From Nitrosopumilaceae archaeon (GTDB taxonomy: Archaea > Thermoproteota > Nitrososphaeria > Nitrososphaerales > Nitrosopumilaceae): a stretch of DNA of 52,550 nucleotides. The position numbers were made by a program, and so were the translations under genes. The DNA lies in contig JANQNN010000007.1 in NCBI GenBank assembly GCA_028279545.1, positions 1 to 52,550 on the forward strand, given 5' to 3'. A model generated the notes under the pieces. That model made no database searches. It was not told the origin of the DNA and saw only the letters and a list, made by a program, of their open reading frames with translations. Below are positions 22,275 to 27,052 of this stretch, in pieces (the stretch's first letter is position 1; the number at the start of each line of letters is the position of its first letter).

Positions 22275-24008
22275 CTATTCTTCTCCTCCCTTTCCAATAT
22301 CTCCTATACCAAATTCTTCAATAACTTTATTCCTATCTGAATCCTTTTGGCTAATTTCTTCAAACTCTCTTTTTTCATCCCCTTGGTAAATTGTTCTAAT
22401 TGGCCATGGAATTCTAATGTCATATTTCTGAAATTCTTCGTACATGATCATTCTAAGGTCTGTTTTAGTTTTGAATTGAGCTCCATAATCTCTAACATAA
22501 ACCCACATTGAAAAGTCAAGAGAAGAATCATTGAACTCATTAAATCTAACAACTGGTTGAGAAATATCAACATGCAAATCCTTATCGCAACCACAACTTT
22601 TTTGATTATTATCTAAATAGGGACATCTGTTTTGTCTAACTAGATGTCTTCCTTTTTTATCCACACATTCTCTCATCCCTCTTTTTCCAACTTTAACAAG
22701 AATAGACGCGACTTGTTTTGGATTATTTAGATAAGAAACTCCCACCTTCACTTCGGCTGGTACTAACTTGTTTTCTTTTGTATAATTGATAACTTGAGAG
22801 TTAATTAATGACCTTGTTGGAACTATGGCTATAGATTCATGTAGAGCATCTCTTACATAGGTAACTCTAGGATTTATTTTATTTACATAACCATTAAATC
22901 CAGTGTCAAGTTTGATCCTTTCCCCTTCAGAAATTATCTTGTCTTTTCTAATTACAATATATGCAAAATAATTTTGCAAAGTTTCTTGTAAAGCTAAACC
23001 TAATCCAATTGCAAATCCACCAGTTGCAGTTGCTAATACAACCAAGTCTACTCCCCACCATGCAACCACACCCAGTATGACTGCTACAAAAATTCCAATA
23101 GGTAAAATCTGTTTAAACGATTTAGGTAAGCCTTCTCGTTTTTTTAGAGCATAACCAGGTGGACGGGAACTTGGAATAATTGGTTCAAAGTCATGAAATC
23201 TTTTTTCTTCTCTCCATACATCTATTGGATAAATTTCATCAGGTTTTGCACCAGGTTTTAATTTTCGTCCAGATTGATTATTTCCAGTTATACAGTTTTT
23301 GTAATATTTTTGATATTTTTCCCTCTCTGATTTCTTCCATTGTTCAAATGGATCTTTAACTAATTTTTCGTAACTTCCAATTGGATTTCCTTTTGTGGTA
23401 CGGAATTCCTCAAGAAATAACAATCCTTCTTTGGTTCCAAGATGTTTTTGAAATTCTTCTTCAGGAATTTCATCTACAGTCATTTTTGGTGGTACAAAAC
23501 TGTATAACTTATGGAACAAATCTCCATCATCGTCTGAGAAACCCCTATGGTCAAACCAAGCATCAAAATCTTCTCTTTCAAGTATGGATTTTTCTCGTTT
23601 TGTTAATGCTATGGGAACTAGATGAGCAACTGTGTATCCTATTACTAAAATATTAAAAGTATTCAGAATTTTTGTAAATGTCGCTTCTGCGGTTGCTTCA
23701 TCGTTTTCATCAATATCTTCTACATTGAAAAAACCAGACGTTTGCATATAGGCATTTGTTGATGAAATAAGAGCAATGGCAAAAAACGGCAAGACCGCTC
23801 TTCTGATAAATCTAGCTAAATGTGGTCTGTCATAGTATATTTTATGAGCTTTTACAAAATTAGAAAATTTACTATAAACTACGGCGATAACGATCATGCC
23901 AATTATCATTGCAATAAATGCAAATTGCAAAGGCTCTGACGAACCTATTAATTGTGATACATTCTCAAATTCTCCAATTGAAATTTGTGATCCTTCATGC
24001 TCGGCCAT
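22275..24008 (-). CDS. MscS-family mechanosensitive channel with Cys-rich insertion
   Basis: The 577-aa protein has a periplasmic N-terminus, three N-terminal helices (about 28-45, 68-88, 112-135), a large soluble acidic region (about 140-295) and a channel core. Pore helix TM3 carries ATATGGFAIGLGLALQETLQNYFAYIVI, the Ala/Gly-packed MscS signature. The following beta domain has KLDTGFNGYVNKINPRVTYVR. In the C-terminal domain, Cys448, Cys462, Cys472 and Cys474 form an unusual putative metal site. It would release solutes on osmotic downshock, or sense redox/metal if the Cys site is real. Confidence 0.88.
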   Translation of the reverse strand: MAEHEGSQISIGEFENVSQLIGSSEPLQFAFIAMIIGMIVIAVVYSKFSNFVKAHKIYYDRPHLARFIRRAVLPFFAIALISSTNAYMQTSGFFNVEDIDENDEATAEATFTKILNTFNILVIGYTVAHLVPIALTKREKSILEREDFDAWFDHRGFSDDDGDLFHKLYSFVPPKMTVDEIPEEEFQKHLGTKEGLLFLEEFRTTKGNPIGSYEKLVKDPFEQWKKSEREKYQKYYKNCITGNNQSGRKLKPGAKPDEIYPIDVWREEKRFHDFEPIIPSSRPPGYALKKREGLPKSFKQILPIGIFVAVILGVVAWWGVDLVVLATATGGFAIGLGLALQETLQNYFAYIVIRKDKIISEGERIKLDTGFNGYVNKINPRVTYVRDALHESIAIVPTRSLINSQVINYTKENKLVPAEVKVGVSYLNNPKQVASILVKVGKRGMRECVDKKGRHLVRQNRCPYLDNNQKSCGCDKDLHVDISQPVVRFNEFNDSSLDFSMWVYVRDYGAQFKTKTDLRMIMYEEFQKYDIRIPWPIRTIYQGDEKREFEEISQKDSDRNKVIEEFGIGDIGKGGEE

Positions 24009-24168
24009 AATTTTTTCCTTTTAATCTAATTTGATTCAAAAGAAAGGAAAGTTAACCCATTTTATCATATCTTGTTACAATTATAATCAAAAATTTTACC
24101 AATTTTGGTCCTTTTTGAGCCCAAAAAAATATGCAACCTTTAACAAGGGTAAATAGCTATTATACTAA

Positions 24169-25527
24169 ATGACTTATCAGAAGACCGTTTGGGATGAATC
24201 ACCTTCTCTAAAATCATATACACTATCAAATTTTCGTGATATTCCCCAGATTCAGGAACTCTCAGAACAAAAGCAATTTGAGATGGAGGTTGTGGGAAAT
24301 GTTTTACCATTTAAGGCAAATAATTATGTCATAGAACAACTAATTGATTGGAATAATATTCCCGAAGATCCTATGTTTGTTCTAACGTTTCCACAAAAAG
24401 GAATGCTCCGTACTGAACATTTTGAAAAAATGTCAAACACTCTAAAAAACAGTTCTGATAGAAAAGAGATCGCAGAGGTGGCTAATGAAATTCGCTTACA
24501 GCTAAATCCACACCCAGCAGGACAAATGGAGTTAAATGTTCCAACACTAAAAGATGGCACAAAACTGTATGGCATGCAACATAAATACAAAGAAACATGT
24601 CTCTTTTTTCCAAGTCAAAGTCAAACTTGTCATGCATATTGTAGCTTTTGTTTTAGGTGGCCACAATTTGTTGGGATGGATGAAATGAAATTTGCTATGA
24701 AAGAGGGAGAACAACTTGTCCAATATTTAGTTGAACACCCAGAAATTACTGATGTGCTTTTTACTGGAGGAGATCCCATGATCATGAAGGCAAAAATATT
24801 TTCACAATATATGCAAACTTTGATAGATGCAAAGCTTCCTAATCTGAGAACAATTAGAATTGGAACAAAATCGCTTTCATATTGGCCATACAAATTTTTA
24901 ACTGATAATGATGCTGATTTAATGTTAGACGTTTTTAGAAATGTAACCAAAAGTGGTCTACACCTTGCATTTATGGCACATTTTAATCATTTAACTGAAT
25001 TAACAACTGACTCAGTAAAAAGAGCAATTCAAGAGGTTCGAGCCACAGGAGCTCAGATTAGAACACAATCTCCTCTTTTAGCTCACATCAATGACGATGC
25101 AAACATGTGGGCAGAAATGTGGACCAAACAAGTACAGCTAGGATGTATTCCGTACTACATGTTTGTTGTAAGGGATACTGGCGCTCAACATTATTTTGGA
25201 GTTTCATTAGAAAAAGCAAATAAAATTTTCCGAAATGCCTACAAAAAGGTTAGTGGGCTTGGAAGAACAGTTAGAGGCCCTAGCATGTCTGCTACACCTG
25301 GCAAAGTGGTAGTGGATGGTGTTGTTACAATAAAGGGCGAAAAATTATTCTCCTTACGTTTTCTTCAAGGAAGAAATCCTGATTGGGTACAAAAACCATT
25401 TTTTGCAAAATTTGATGAAAGTGCAATTTGGCTAGATGACCTGAAGCCAGCTTTTGAAGAGAAATTTTTCTTTGAGGAGGAACTAGCAACATTCAAAAAA
25501 TCAAAAGCGACTGAGCCAAATCAGTAG
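24169..25527 (+). CDS. KamA-like radical SAM protein (aminomutase family, substrate unknown)
   Basis: The 452-aa protein has the radical SAM triad Cys154, Cys158 and Cys161 (CHAYCSFC) and the GGDP turn at 200-203 common to lysine 2,3-aminomutases. The residue aligned to lysine-binding Asp293 of the clostridial enzyme appears to be Arg335. The PLP-lysine loop (PDAPGGGGK-like) is not recognisable: the corresponding stretch is short, reading RGPSMSATPGK. Annotation as lysine aminomutase is therefore unsafe. It stands 79 bases before the glutamine synthetase gene on the same strand, in keeping with an amino-acid role. Confidence 0.75.
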   Translation: MTYQKTVWDESPSLKSYTLSNFRDIPQIQELSEQKQFEMEVVGNVLPFKANNYVIEQLIDWNNIPEDPMFVLTFPQKGMLRTEHFEKMSNTLKNSSDRKEIAEVANEIRLQLNPHPAGQMELNVPTLKDGTKLYGMQHKYKETCLFFPSQSQTCHAYCSFCFRWPQFVGMDEMKFAMKEGEQLVQYLVEHPEITDVLFTGGDPMIMKAKIFSQYMQTLIDAKLPNLRTIRIGTKSLSYWPYKFLTDNDADLMLDVFRNVTKSGLHLAFMAHFNHLTELTTDSVKRAIQEVRATGAQIRTQSPLLAHINDDANMWAEMWTKQVQLGCIPYYMFVVRDTGAQHYFGVSLEKANKIFRNAYKKVSGLGRTVRGPSMSATPGKVVVDGVVTIKGEKLFSLRFLQGRNPDWVQKPFFAKFDESAIWLDDLKPAFEEKFFFEEELATFKKSKATEPNQ

Positions 25528-25606
25528 TCTTAAGTTTTCCCTTACTATATTGACAAAAGAATCTTACTATCTACCCTTAGTAAACGCGATTTATTAAAAA
25601 AAACAG

Positions 25607-27052
25607 TTGAATGCAGACCAAGTCCTTCAAGCTTTGCAAGATGAAGATGTTTCATTTGTAAATCTCTGGTTTGTTGATATTTTTGGGGAACTACATCGGC
25701 TTGGAATGCCTAGTTATGCTATAGATAAGCATAGTTTTGAAAATGGATTAGAAAAATTAGACGCAAGTTCTATTGTTGGATTTAAGGCTGTAAATAATTC
25801 AGATATGATTTTAAAACCAGATCCAAGTTCTTTTAGAATTTTACCTAACGATTATGACCCTGGCCCTAGAAAAAATGCCATTATTTTTTGTGACCTATAT
25901 GAGGGAAATACTGCTAAAGAGGTTAGATATAACAGGGATTCAAGAGGAATCGCTCACAAAGCAACAAATCAATTAAAGAATTTTGGACTAACACACACTA
26001 ACTGGGGTCCTGAAATTGAATTTTTTGTATTTGATACAATTAATGTTTATCCATCACCTTATGCTGCAACTCATTCAGGTGGAGGATCAGGATATTCGAT
26101 TGAATCAAAAGAGTCTCCTTGGGCAAAGGGAAATGTTAGTACTGCAATTGACATCAAGGAAGGCTATTATCCATCGCAACCAAAAGACACTCTTGAAACT
26201 TTTAGAAAAGATGTATGTGAAGATCTTTACAATAATTTTGGCATAAAAATAGAAGCAGAACATCATGAAGTTGCAACTTCAGGCCAATGTGAAATTAATC
26301 TCGTTTACGATGAAATGATTTCGATGGCAGACAGTGTAGTTACAGTCAAAAACATTGTAAAGGTAAAAGCAAAGCGTAAAAATAAAGTAGCCACTTTTAT
26401 GCCCAAACCAATTTTTGGTGATAATGCATCTGCAATGCATACACATCAGAGTTTATGGAATGACCAAGTCAATGTAATGTTTGACCCAGATGATGAAGTT
26501 GCACAAATAAGCCAAATCGGCAGATATTATATTGGGGGAATTTTATCACATGCTTCTGCACTTTGTGCAATTTCAAATCCTACTACTAATTCCTATAAAC
26601 GACTAGTTCCTGGATTTGAAGCACCTGTAAATGTTTGCTGGGGAATGGGAAATCGCTCAGCAGCTATTCGCGTTCCAATGTATTATCGAAATCAAGAAAA
26701 AAGTAAAAGAATAGAATATCGGGTACCTGACCCAACTGCTAATATTTATCTCCTTGAGGCAGCACTACTATTGGCTGGATTAGATGGAATTAAAAATAAA
26801 ATAGATCCTGGGGATCCAGTTGAGGAAAATGTTTACAAGTTAAGTACAGAAAAAAAGAGAGAATATCATATTGGTTCTCTACCTGTTTCCTTAAAAGGTG
26901 CTCTTGATTCTTTGAAAAGTGATCAAAAATTTTTAGAAGAAGTATTCACCAAGGATTTTTTGGACAAGTATGTAGAATTAAAATACAAAGAATATACTTC
27001 ATTTGCTCAAACCCCAACTGCTTGGGAAGTATCAATGTATGCAGATGCATAA
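25607..27052 (+). CDS. glnA: Glutamine synthetase, type I
   Basis: The 481-aa enzyme makes glutamine from glutamate, ammonia and ATP. It has the latch region WFVDIFGELHRLGMP, the metal-binding GPEIEFFVFD and EAEHHEVATSGQCEINL, the ammonia-site NASAMHTHQSLW, and the ATP/glutamate Arg residues in KRLVPGFEAPVN and RIEYRVPDPTAN. One point is odd. The position of the second active-site Arg in the usual SARNRS is Gly348 here (GMGNRS). The start is TTG at 25607. It could act on a glutamate analogue made by the upstream radical SAM enzyme, which is speculation; as a lone GS it would assimilate ammonia. Confidence 0.9.
   Translation: MNADQVLQALQDEDVSFVNLWFVDIFGELHRLGMPSYAIDKHSFENGLEKLDASSIVGFKAVNNSDMILKPDPSSFRILPNDYDPGPRKNAIIFCDLYEGNTAKEVRYNRDSRGIAHKATNQLKNFGLTHTNWGPEIEFFVFDTINVYPSPYAATHSGGGSGYSIESKESPWAKGNVSTAIDIKEGYYPSQPKDTLETFRKDVCEDLYNNFGIKIEAEHHEVATSGQCEINLVYDEMISMADSVVTVKNIVKVKAKRKNKVATFMPKPIFGDNASAMHTHQSLWNDQVNVMFDPDDEVAQISQIGRYYIGGILSHASALCAISNPTTNSYKRLVPGFEAPVNVCWGMGNRSAAIRVPMYYRNQEKSKRIEYRVPDPTANIYLLEAALLLAGLDGIKNKIDPGDPVEENVYKLSTEKKREYHIGSLPVSLKGALDSLKSDQKFLEEVFTKDFLDKYVELKYKEYTSFAQTPTAWEVSMYADA

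Follow-up and report, generated by a model that had tools for sequence, protein, structure and literature searches.

A KamA-like radical S-adenosylmethionine (SAM) enzyme of a Nitrosopumilaceae archaeon, hereafter KAM, is a strong candidate for a glutamate 2,3-aminomutase that makes β-glutamate as an anionic compatible solute. Its gene occurs once in the genome (assembly GCA_028279545.1; 1.92 Mb, 57 contigs) and lies within the window, i.e., the whole stretch of 52,550 nucleotides analyzed here (contig JANQNN010000007.1, positions 1 to 52,550). The most numerous cells of the ocean include ammonia-oxidizing archaea, and a single gene with two partners would now be a candidate for the β-glutamate of this major ocean group, which turns the origin of the compound into a one-gene test. 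The assignment is favored because both lysine-binding aspartates of lysine 2,3-aminomutase (LAM) are lost, the protein appears to be kin to the IdnL4-type enzymes of antibiotic biosynthesis, its gene co-occurs with a glutamine synthetase (GS) and an osmotic channel, and β-glutamate reaches 730 mM in Nitrosopumilus maritimus SCM1, more than any other identified metabolite, as found by Heal et al. (PMC8269262). KAM would probably explain how this close relative accumulates the compound as its most abundant measured metabolite. The accessible part of the same report names no gene for β-glutamic acid. Within the open-access journal literature searched, no paper links an aminomutase gene to the β-glutamate of ammonia-oxidizing archaea; a prior publication is possible.

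Family placement and active site

The features of KAM discussed below are the following:

24169..25527, plus strand: KAM, KamA-like radical SAM/pyridoxal phosphate (PLP) enzyme, 452 amino acids, proposed IdnL4-type glutamate 2,3-aminomutase
24628..24657, plus strand: radical SAM triad C154-x3-C158-x2-C161 plus R163
25171..25173, plus strand: R335, replacing the side-chain-binding D293 of LAM
25282..25305, plus strand: SMSATPGK, from S372 (D330 site of LAM) to K379, the predicted PLP lysine

Membership in the broad KamA type is indicated by the CxxxCxxC and GGDP motifs, the position of the PLP lysine, and a LAM-like fold. Within this type, KAM lies on an outlying branch: it scores 127.9 bits against TIGR00238 (broad KamA family, cut-off 199.2), 106.7 bits against TIGR03820 (AblA, cut-off 525), and 81 bits against TIGR04368 (clostridial glutamate 2,3-aminomutase, cut-off 650), and the NCBIfam models near it (KamA, AblA, EpmB, and the arginine and glutamate 2,3-aminomutases) all stay below their cut-offs. 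These scores put it on a KamA-like branch well removed from the curated lysine and glutamate aminomutases. The sole relative in the PDB by sequence is a lysine 2,3-aminomutase (PDB ID: 2a5h), which is also the top Foldseek match (E 5e-14, template modeling score 0.55-0.60) of an AlphaFold2 model of KAM (mean pLDDT 77, pTM 0.79).

The original prediction, made from the DNA letters, had reported the radical SAM triad and the GGDP motif, and both are present (Cys154, Cys158, and Cys161; GGDP at residues 200-203). The three cysteines align with Cys125, Cys129, and Cys132 of LAM, and Arg163 aligns with Arg134, which has a role in carboxylate binding. In the enzyme of PDB ID: 2a5h, Asp293 and Asp330 bind lysine, and Lys337 is the PLP lysine. 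The proposal that Arg335 occupies the Asp293 position of the Clostridium subterminale enzyme is borne out by phmmer, MAFFT, and hhalign alike, and the Asp330 site corresponds to Ser372. Both lysine-binding aspartates are therefore lost, a stronger change than had been described. A basic residue at the Asp293 position of clostridial glutamate 2,3-aminomutase was reportedly noted by Ruzicka and Frey in 2007.

Since KAM shows no GGGGK loop in its usual form, the PLP lysine had been held to be missing and a chemistry unrelated to that of the PLP aminomutases had been suggested. The glycine-rich loop is indeed replaced, SMSATPGK aligning with DAPGGGGK of LAM; however, Lys379 aligns with the PLP lysine of that loop in both MAFFT and hhalign and, like Arg335, is invariant in the 38 archaeal relatives and nine bacterial homologs aligned. 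This contradicts the supposed absence of the lysine and makes a non-PLP chemistry scarcely credible. A true lysine 2,3-aminomutase, whose β-lysine would go into Nε-acetyl-β-lysine or be used to modify proteins, would agree with the annotation of the bacterial homologs and with the fold, but not with the substitutions of Asp293 by Arg and of Asp330 by Ser, nor with an AblA score so far under the cut-off. Besides, no AblB was found in the window genome by a search that was positive in the control Methanosarcina acetivorans. A lysine/β-lysine role is consequently rejected on the active-site residues and the absence of AblB, and we consider it very improbable; the glutamate assignment would correct the misleading public annotation 'lysine 2,3-aminomutase'.

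Bacterial homologs and IdnL4-type clusters

Homologs with 45-53% identity to KAM are detected by tblastn in plasmid records of Streptomyces, Mycetohabitans, Nocardia, Amycolatopsis, Rhodococcus, and others; most are annotated as 'lysine 2,3-aminomutase', and they are often located beside nonribosomal peptide synthetase (NRPS) or polyketide synthase (PKS) genes. The homolog from Streptomyces NBC_00334 (48% identity over 92%) is surrounded by genes for a type I PKS, a PLP enzyme, two adenylation enzymes, an 84-residue stand-alone acyl carrier protein (ACP), a VinK-type acyltransferase (PF21124), and a peptidase. By its gene content, this set matches a complete macrolactam starter cluster as known for incednine and pretilactam, in agreement with the β-amino-acid starter machinery reviewed in PMC11284099. 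The PLP partner is 50% identical to the enzyme beside the Amycolatopsis homolog, so its pairing with a KAM homolog recurs. In incednine biosynthesis, feeding identified β-glutamate as an intermediate and disruption of idnL4 showed that IdnL4 is needed; on these genetic grounds the enzyme is assigned as a glutamate 2,3-aminomutase (PMC11284099). PlmK from the pretilactam cluster (450 amino acids), annotated as a lysine aminomutase, is called a glutamate 2,3-aminomutase as well (PMC6631532).

KAM resembles IdnL4 and PlmK in being a radical SAM KamA-like protein of about 450 residues, one 48%-identical homolog of which shares their type of partner genes. It differs in being archaeal and in its location beside MscS and GS genes, without an adenylation enzyme, ACP, or decarboxylase; while IdnL4 and PlmK provide an antibiotic starter unit, KAM would supply an osmolyte. 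In the reconstructed tree, the archaeal KAM proteins constitute one clade (100/100) that is joined to the bacterial members (100/100), and bacterial lineages branch outside it, mostly with modest support. From this topology, the archaeal gene is likely of bacterial origin, although this is not proven.

KAM could alternatively be a KamA-type aminomutase for another small or acidic amino acid (aspartate, glutamine, or alanine) or for a carrier-bound substrate. Arg335 says merely that the substrate is probably not cationic at that end; bacterial members reside in diverse NRPS/PKS clusters, and relatives of an RPVKG type, which carry the same arginine, adjoin EctB and ATP-grasp genes. On the other hand, no carrier protein or adenylation gene is found beside archaeal KAM, one bacterial member belongs to an incednine-type gene set, and it is specifically β-glutamate that N. 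maritimus accumulates (PMC8269262). A substrate other than glutamate is accordingly regarded as unlikely.

Co-occurrence and gene order in Nitrosopumilaceae

Two genes flank KAM in the window:

22275..24008, minus strand: MscS-type mechanosensitive channel, 577 amino acids, with Pfam domains MS_channel_2nd and MS_channel_3rd; divergent from KAM; presumed solute release valve
25607..27052, plus strand: KAM-linked GlnA-type GS paralog, 481 amino acids, TTG start codon; its proposed substrate is β-glutamate, or it could otherwise serve the same pool
26420..26440, plus strand: altered GS substrate loop DNASAMH (usual DNGSGMH), i.e., G265A and G267A in Salmonella numbering

The KAM and GS reading frames are found where they had been predicted, on the same strand and 79 bp apart. 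The divergent channel gene, absent from that account, is a member of the MscS family by its β and C-terminal domains (MS_channel_2nd, 6.9e-08; MS_channel_3rd, 8.3e-07).

The distribution of the three genes was compared in the same 151 Nitrosopumilaceae genomes, with at least 55% identity required of GS orthologs. KAM is present in 97 genomes, the GS ortholog in 62, and the MscS gene in 86. All 62 GS orthologs belong to KAM-positive genomes and none to the 54 KAM-negative ones (Fisher 2e-17, shared ancestry ignored); for MscS, 85 of the 86 carriers have KAM (Fisher 9e-28, shared ancestry likewise ignored). In the lone MscS-positive, KAM-negative genome (G206), the channel gene runs to the contig edge, and KAM may lie off the contig. 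The KAM/GS pair thus co-occurs in relatives, as the original prediction required. The two genes are less than 400 bp apart in 50 of the 62 genomes and about 2 kb apart in four; they are separated by hundreds of kilobases or more on one contig in G096 and G156, and in six genomes they lie on different contigs, both retained. At the 59 loci with enough flanking sequence, a divergent MscS gene lies upstream of KAM in 56 cases and GS is located downstream in 44. The GS ortholog is missing from 35 of the 97 KAM-positive genomes, including most of genus g10, which has small genomes.

The patchiness of KAM within genera suggests repeated loss or gain, and from its distribution one can predict in which archaeal lineages β-glutamate is to be expected and in which it is not. 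The KAM-negative genomes include G029, G216 (g5), G222 (g102), G223 (g103), and parts of g2, g4, and g9.

Osmotic setting

Where the 577-residue MscS is lacking, other channel or antiporter genes can replace it at the KAM locus. Two genomes of genus g2 without it encode KAM, DUF432, a different MscS (279-290 residues), and GS in a row:

L202:5190-10204: operon KAM-DUF432-small MscS-GS, followed by a Na+/H+ exchanger
L203:5082-9761: operon KAM-DUF432-small MscS-GS

In G240 (genus g9), a Na+/H+ exchanger is divergent from KAM. The occurrence of unrelated channel or ion-transport genes in the place of MscS is a stronger argument for an osmotic role than synteny by itself. As a side observation, the DUF432 protein of the g2 operon may partner the small MscS.

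Ectoine has been reported from N. maritimus, as cited in PMC8281238. No ectoine synthase was found in the window genome; genome G102, which carries MscS, KAM, and GS in the order of the window, also possesses an ectoine synthase.

The linked glutamine synthetase

The KAM-linked GS scores 525 bits against TIGR00653 (cut-off 429) and retains the catalytic residues Glu129, Glu131, Glu212, Glu220, His269, Arg321, Glu327, Arg339, Arg344, Arg355, Glu357, and Arg359. The window genome has three GS genes, and this one shares 45-49% identity with the remaining pair. Its Gly348 had been noted in place of a usual arginine. The residue is real; it aligns, however, with Arg337 of the Salmonella enzyme and not with the catalytic Arg339, which is conserved. 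As a sign of new specificity, Gly348 is rejected: the position is non-catalytic, varies among Gly, Ala, Ser, and Asn in orthologs, and is also Gly in the Nostoc GS (PDB ID: 3ng0).

The substrate loop offers a different indication. Both G265A and G267A are found in 11 of the 11 KAM-linked orthologs compared, which consequently lack the loop Gly265, whereas both GS paralogs of the window genome keep it. Of 200 genomes from the phylum, 24 contain a DNA pattern for DNASAMH, and every one of these 24 is KAM-positive. Gly265 is part of the loop in which the substrate glutamate is held, and a changed substrate such as β-glutamate is therefore a fair guess for this enzyme. A function as β-glutamine synthetase is plausible, if on the doubtful side.

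The paralog might instead be an ordinary ammonia-assimilating enzyme, tied to KAM by a shared demand for glutamate, which would be compatible with KAM being a glutamate 2,3-aminomutase. Its complete catalytic residues and its score above the GlnA cut-off are in line with this, and its absence from several KAM-positive lineages makes it dispensable for forming β-glutamate. Two further GS are already encoded in the genome, though; the paralog never occurs without KAM, even where the two are unlinked on the chromosome, and its loop is altered in every ortholog compared while Gly265 persists in both paralogs. We give the ordinary function an even chance. Of the originally proposed route from glutamate to β-glutamate and perhaps β-glutamine, the first step is well supported by the aspartate loss, the kinship, the co-occurrence, and the 730 mM pool; the second stays plausible, while the residue argument offered for it fails, Gly348 being non-informative.

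Proposed mechanism and relation to known systems

KAM, acting as a glutamate 2,3-aminomutase, would generate a 5'-deoxyadenosyl radical from SAM. The radical would abstract a C3 hydrogen from glutamate bound as a PLP aldimine, with Lys379 anchoring the cofactor and Arg335 holding the side-chain carboxylate, and the amino group of L-glutamate would be shifted to C3, as in LAM. The product, which we infer to be the same β-glutamate that is measured in N. maritimus, is not used in proteins and could build up together with K+. GS may turn part of this pool into neutral β-glutamine, or otherwise act on it, and MscS might let the solute out on down-shock. The entire osmolyte module, i.e., radical glutamate 2,3-aminomutases of a second, independent lineage, a GS with the DNASAMH loop making β-glutamine, and MscS as release valve, is proposed tentatively and is possible rather than probable. 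What would be new here is an aminomutase of the IdnL4 type within an archaeal osmolyte module whose GS has an altered loop. We hold it with good confidence that a glutamate 2,3-aminomutase making β-glutamate as a compatible solute is the best explanation of the data.

With LAM (AblA/KamA, PDB ID: 2a5h), KAM shares the fold, the radical SAM motif, the PLP lysine, and the equivalent of Arg134; unlike LAM, it has neither lysine-binding aspartate, and its genome has no AblB. Clostridial Eam (TIGR04368) catalyzes the reaction proposed for KAM, and eam occurs under Na+ riboswitches, which ties it to salt (PMC9337991). The Eam family lies far nearer to LAM (TIGR04368 gives 474 bits for a true AblA), and KAM would represent a separate lineage; no protein of the control genomes passes the TIGR04368 cut-off. 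In Methanohalophilus portucalensis, as potentially here, a GS is found near a β-amino-acid osmolyte pool, and the enzyme converts β-glutamate to β-glutamine (PMC1224877). That activity is known for the methanogen GS and proposed for the KAM-linked one, and the β-glutamate of M. portucalensis does not come from an aminomutase [PMC1224877]. A glutamate 2,3-aminomutase function of KAM would separate the β-glutamate route of ammonia-oxidizing archaea from that of methanogens.

Several observations weigh against this function. An aminomutase origin of methanogen β-glutamate was ruled out by nuclear magnetic resonance (PMC1224877), and purified IdnL4 was inactive in vitro (PMC11284099). The kinship of KAM to IdnL4 is drawn via a cluster resembling that of IdnL4, not via the IdnL4 sequence, and every curated KamA-family model scores KAM under its cut-off. 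Uncharacterized KamA-like groups, too, have an arginine at the Asp293 site, and the residue is no proof of glutamate; the low-confidence parts of the KAM model, loops 141-153 and 336-342, include the substrate loop, and no side-chain geometry is claimed. The gene is missing from 54 of the 151 family genomes. Finally, a salinity proxy, the net charge of RNA polymerase, does not differ between KAM-positive and KAM-negative members of three mixed genera (p 0.7-1.0); this charge comparison neither supports nor refutes an osmotic role of KAM.

Additional features of the locus and of bacterial relatives

The region between the channel gene and KAM contains a potential promoter:

24009..24168, no strand assigned: divergent intergenic region between MscS and KAM
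~24137-24149: TATA-like TTTAACAA within the inverted repeat CCTT-TAAC-AAGG, ~30 bp ahead of the KAM ATG

The position of the inverted repeat is kept in most near relatives, which may point to a regulatory role. A different inverted repeat, ACTAA...TTAGT, is present in the GS promoter region of relatives. A promoter motif common to the KAM and GS upstream regions in the window, CTATYTACCCTTRGTAA, was considered and rejected, as it is not conserved in relatives. Toward the C-terminal part of the 577-residue MscS, there is a cysteine-rich stretch, RNRCPYLDNNQKSCGCD, which is unusual for MscS.

Rhizobial plasmids (L119:3469-11212 and L139) encode another KamA-like group, which has Arg at the Asp293 site and is characterized by RPVKG and MSHxTGK motifs. 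In L119, the gene adjoins those of EctB, aspartate-semialdehyde dehydrogenase, and ATP-grasp proteins, and the substrate is perhaps diaminobutyrate-derived. On Rhodococcus plasmid pDK3 (L118:4020-18988), a KAM homolog is accompanied by genes for a SidA/PvdA-type N-hydroxylase, a cupin, a class I tRNA-ligase-like protein, an FMN-dependent monooxygenase, and ATP-grasp proteins, a cluster that resembles those forming N-N bonds.

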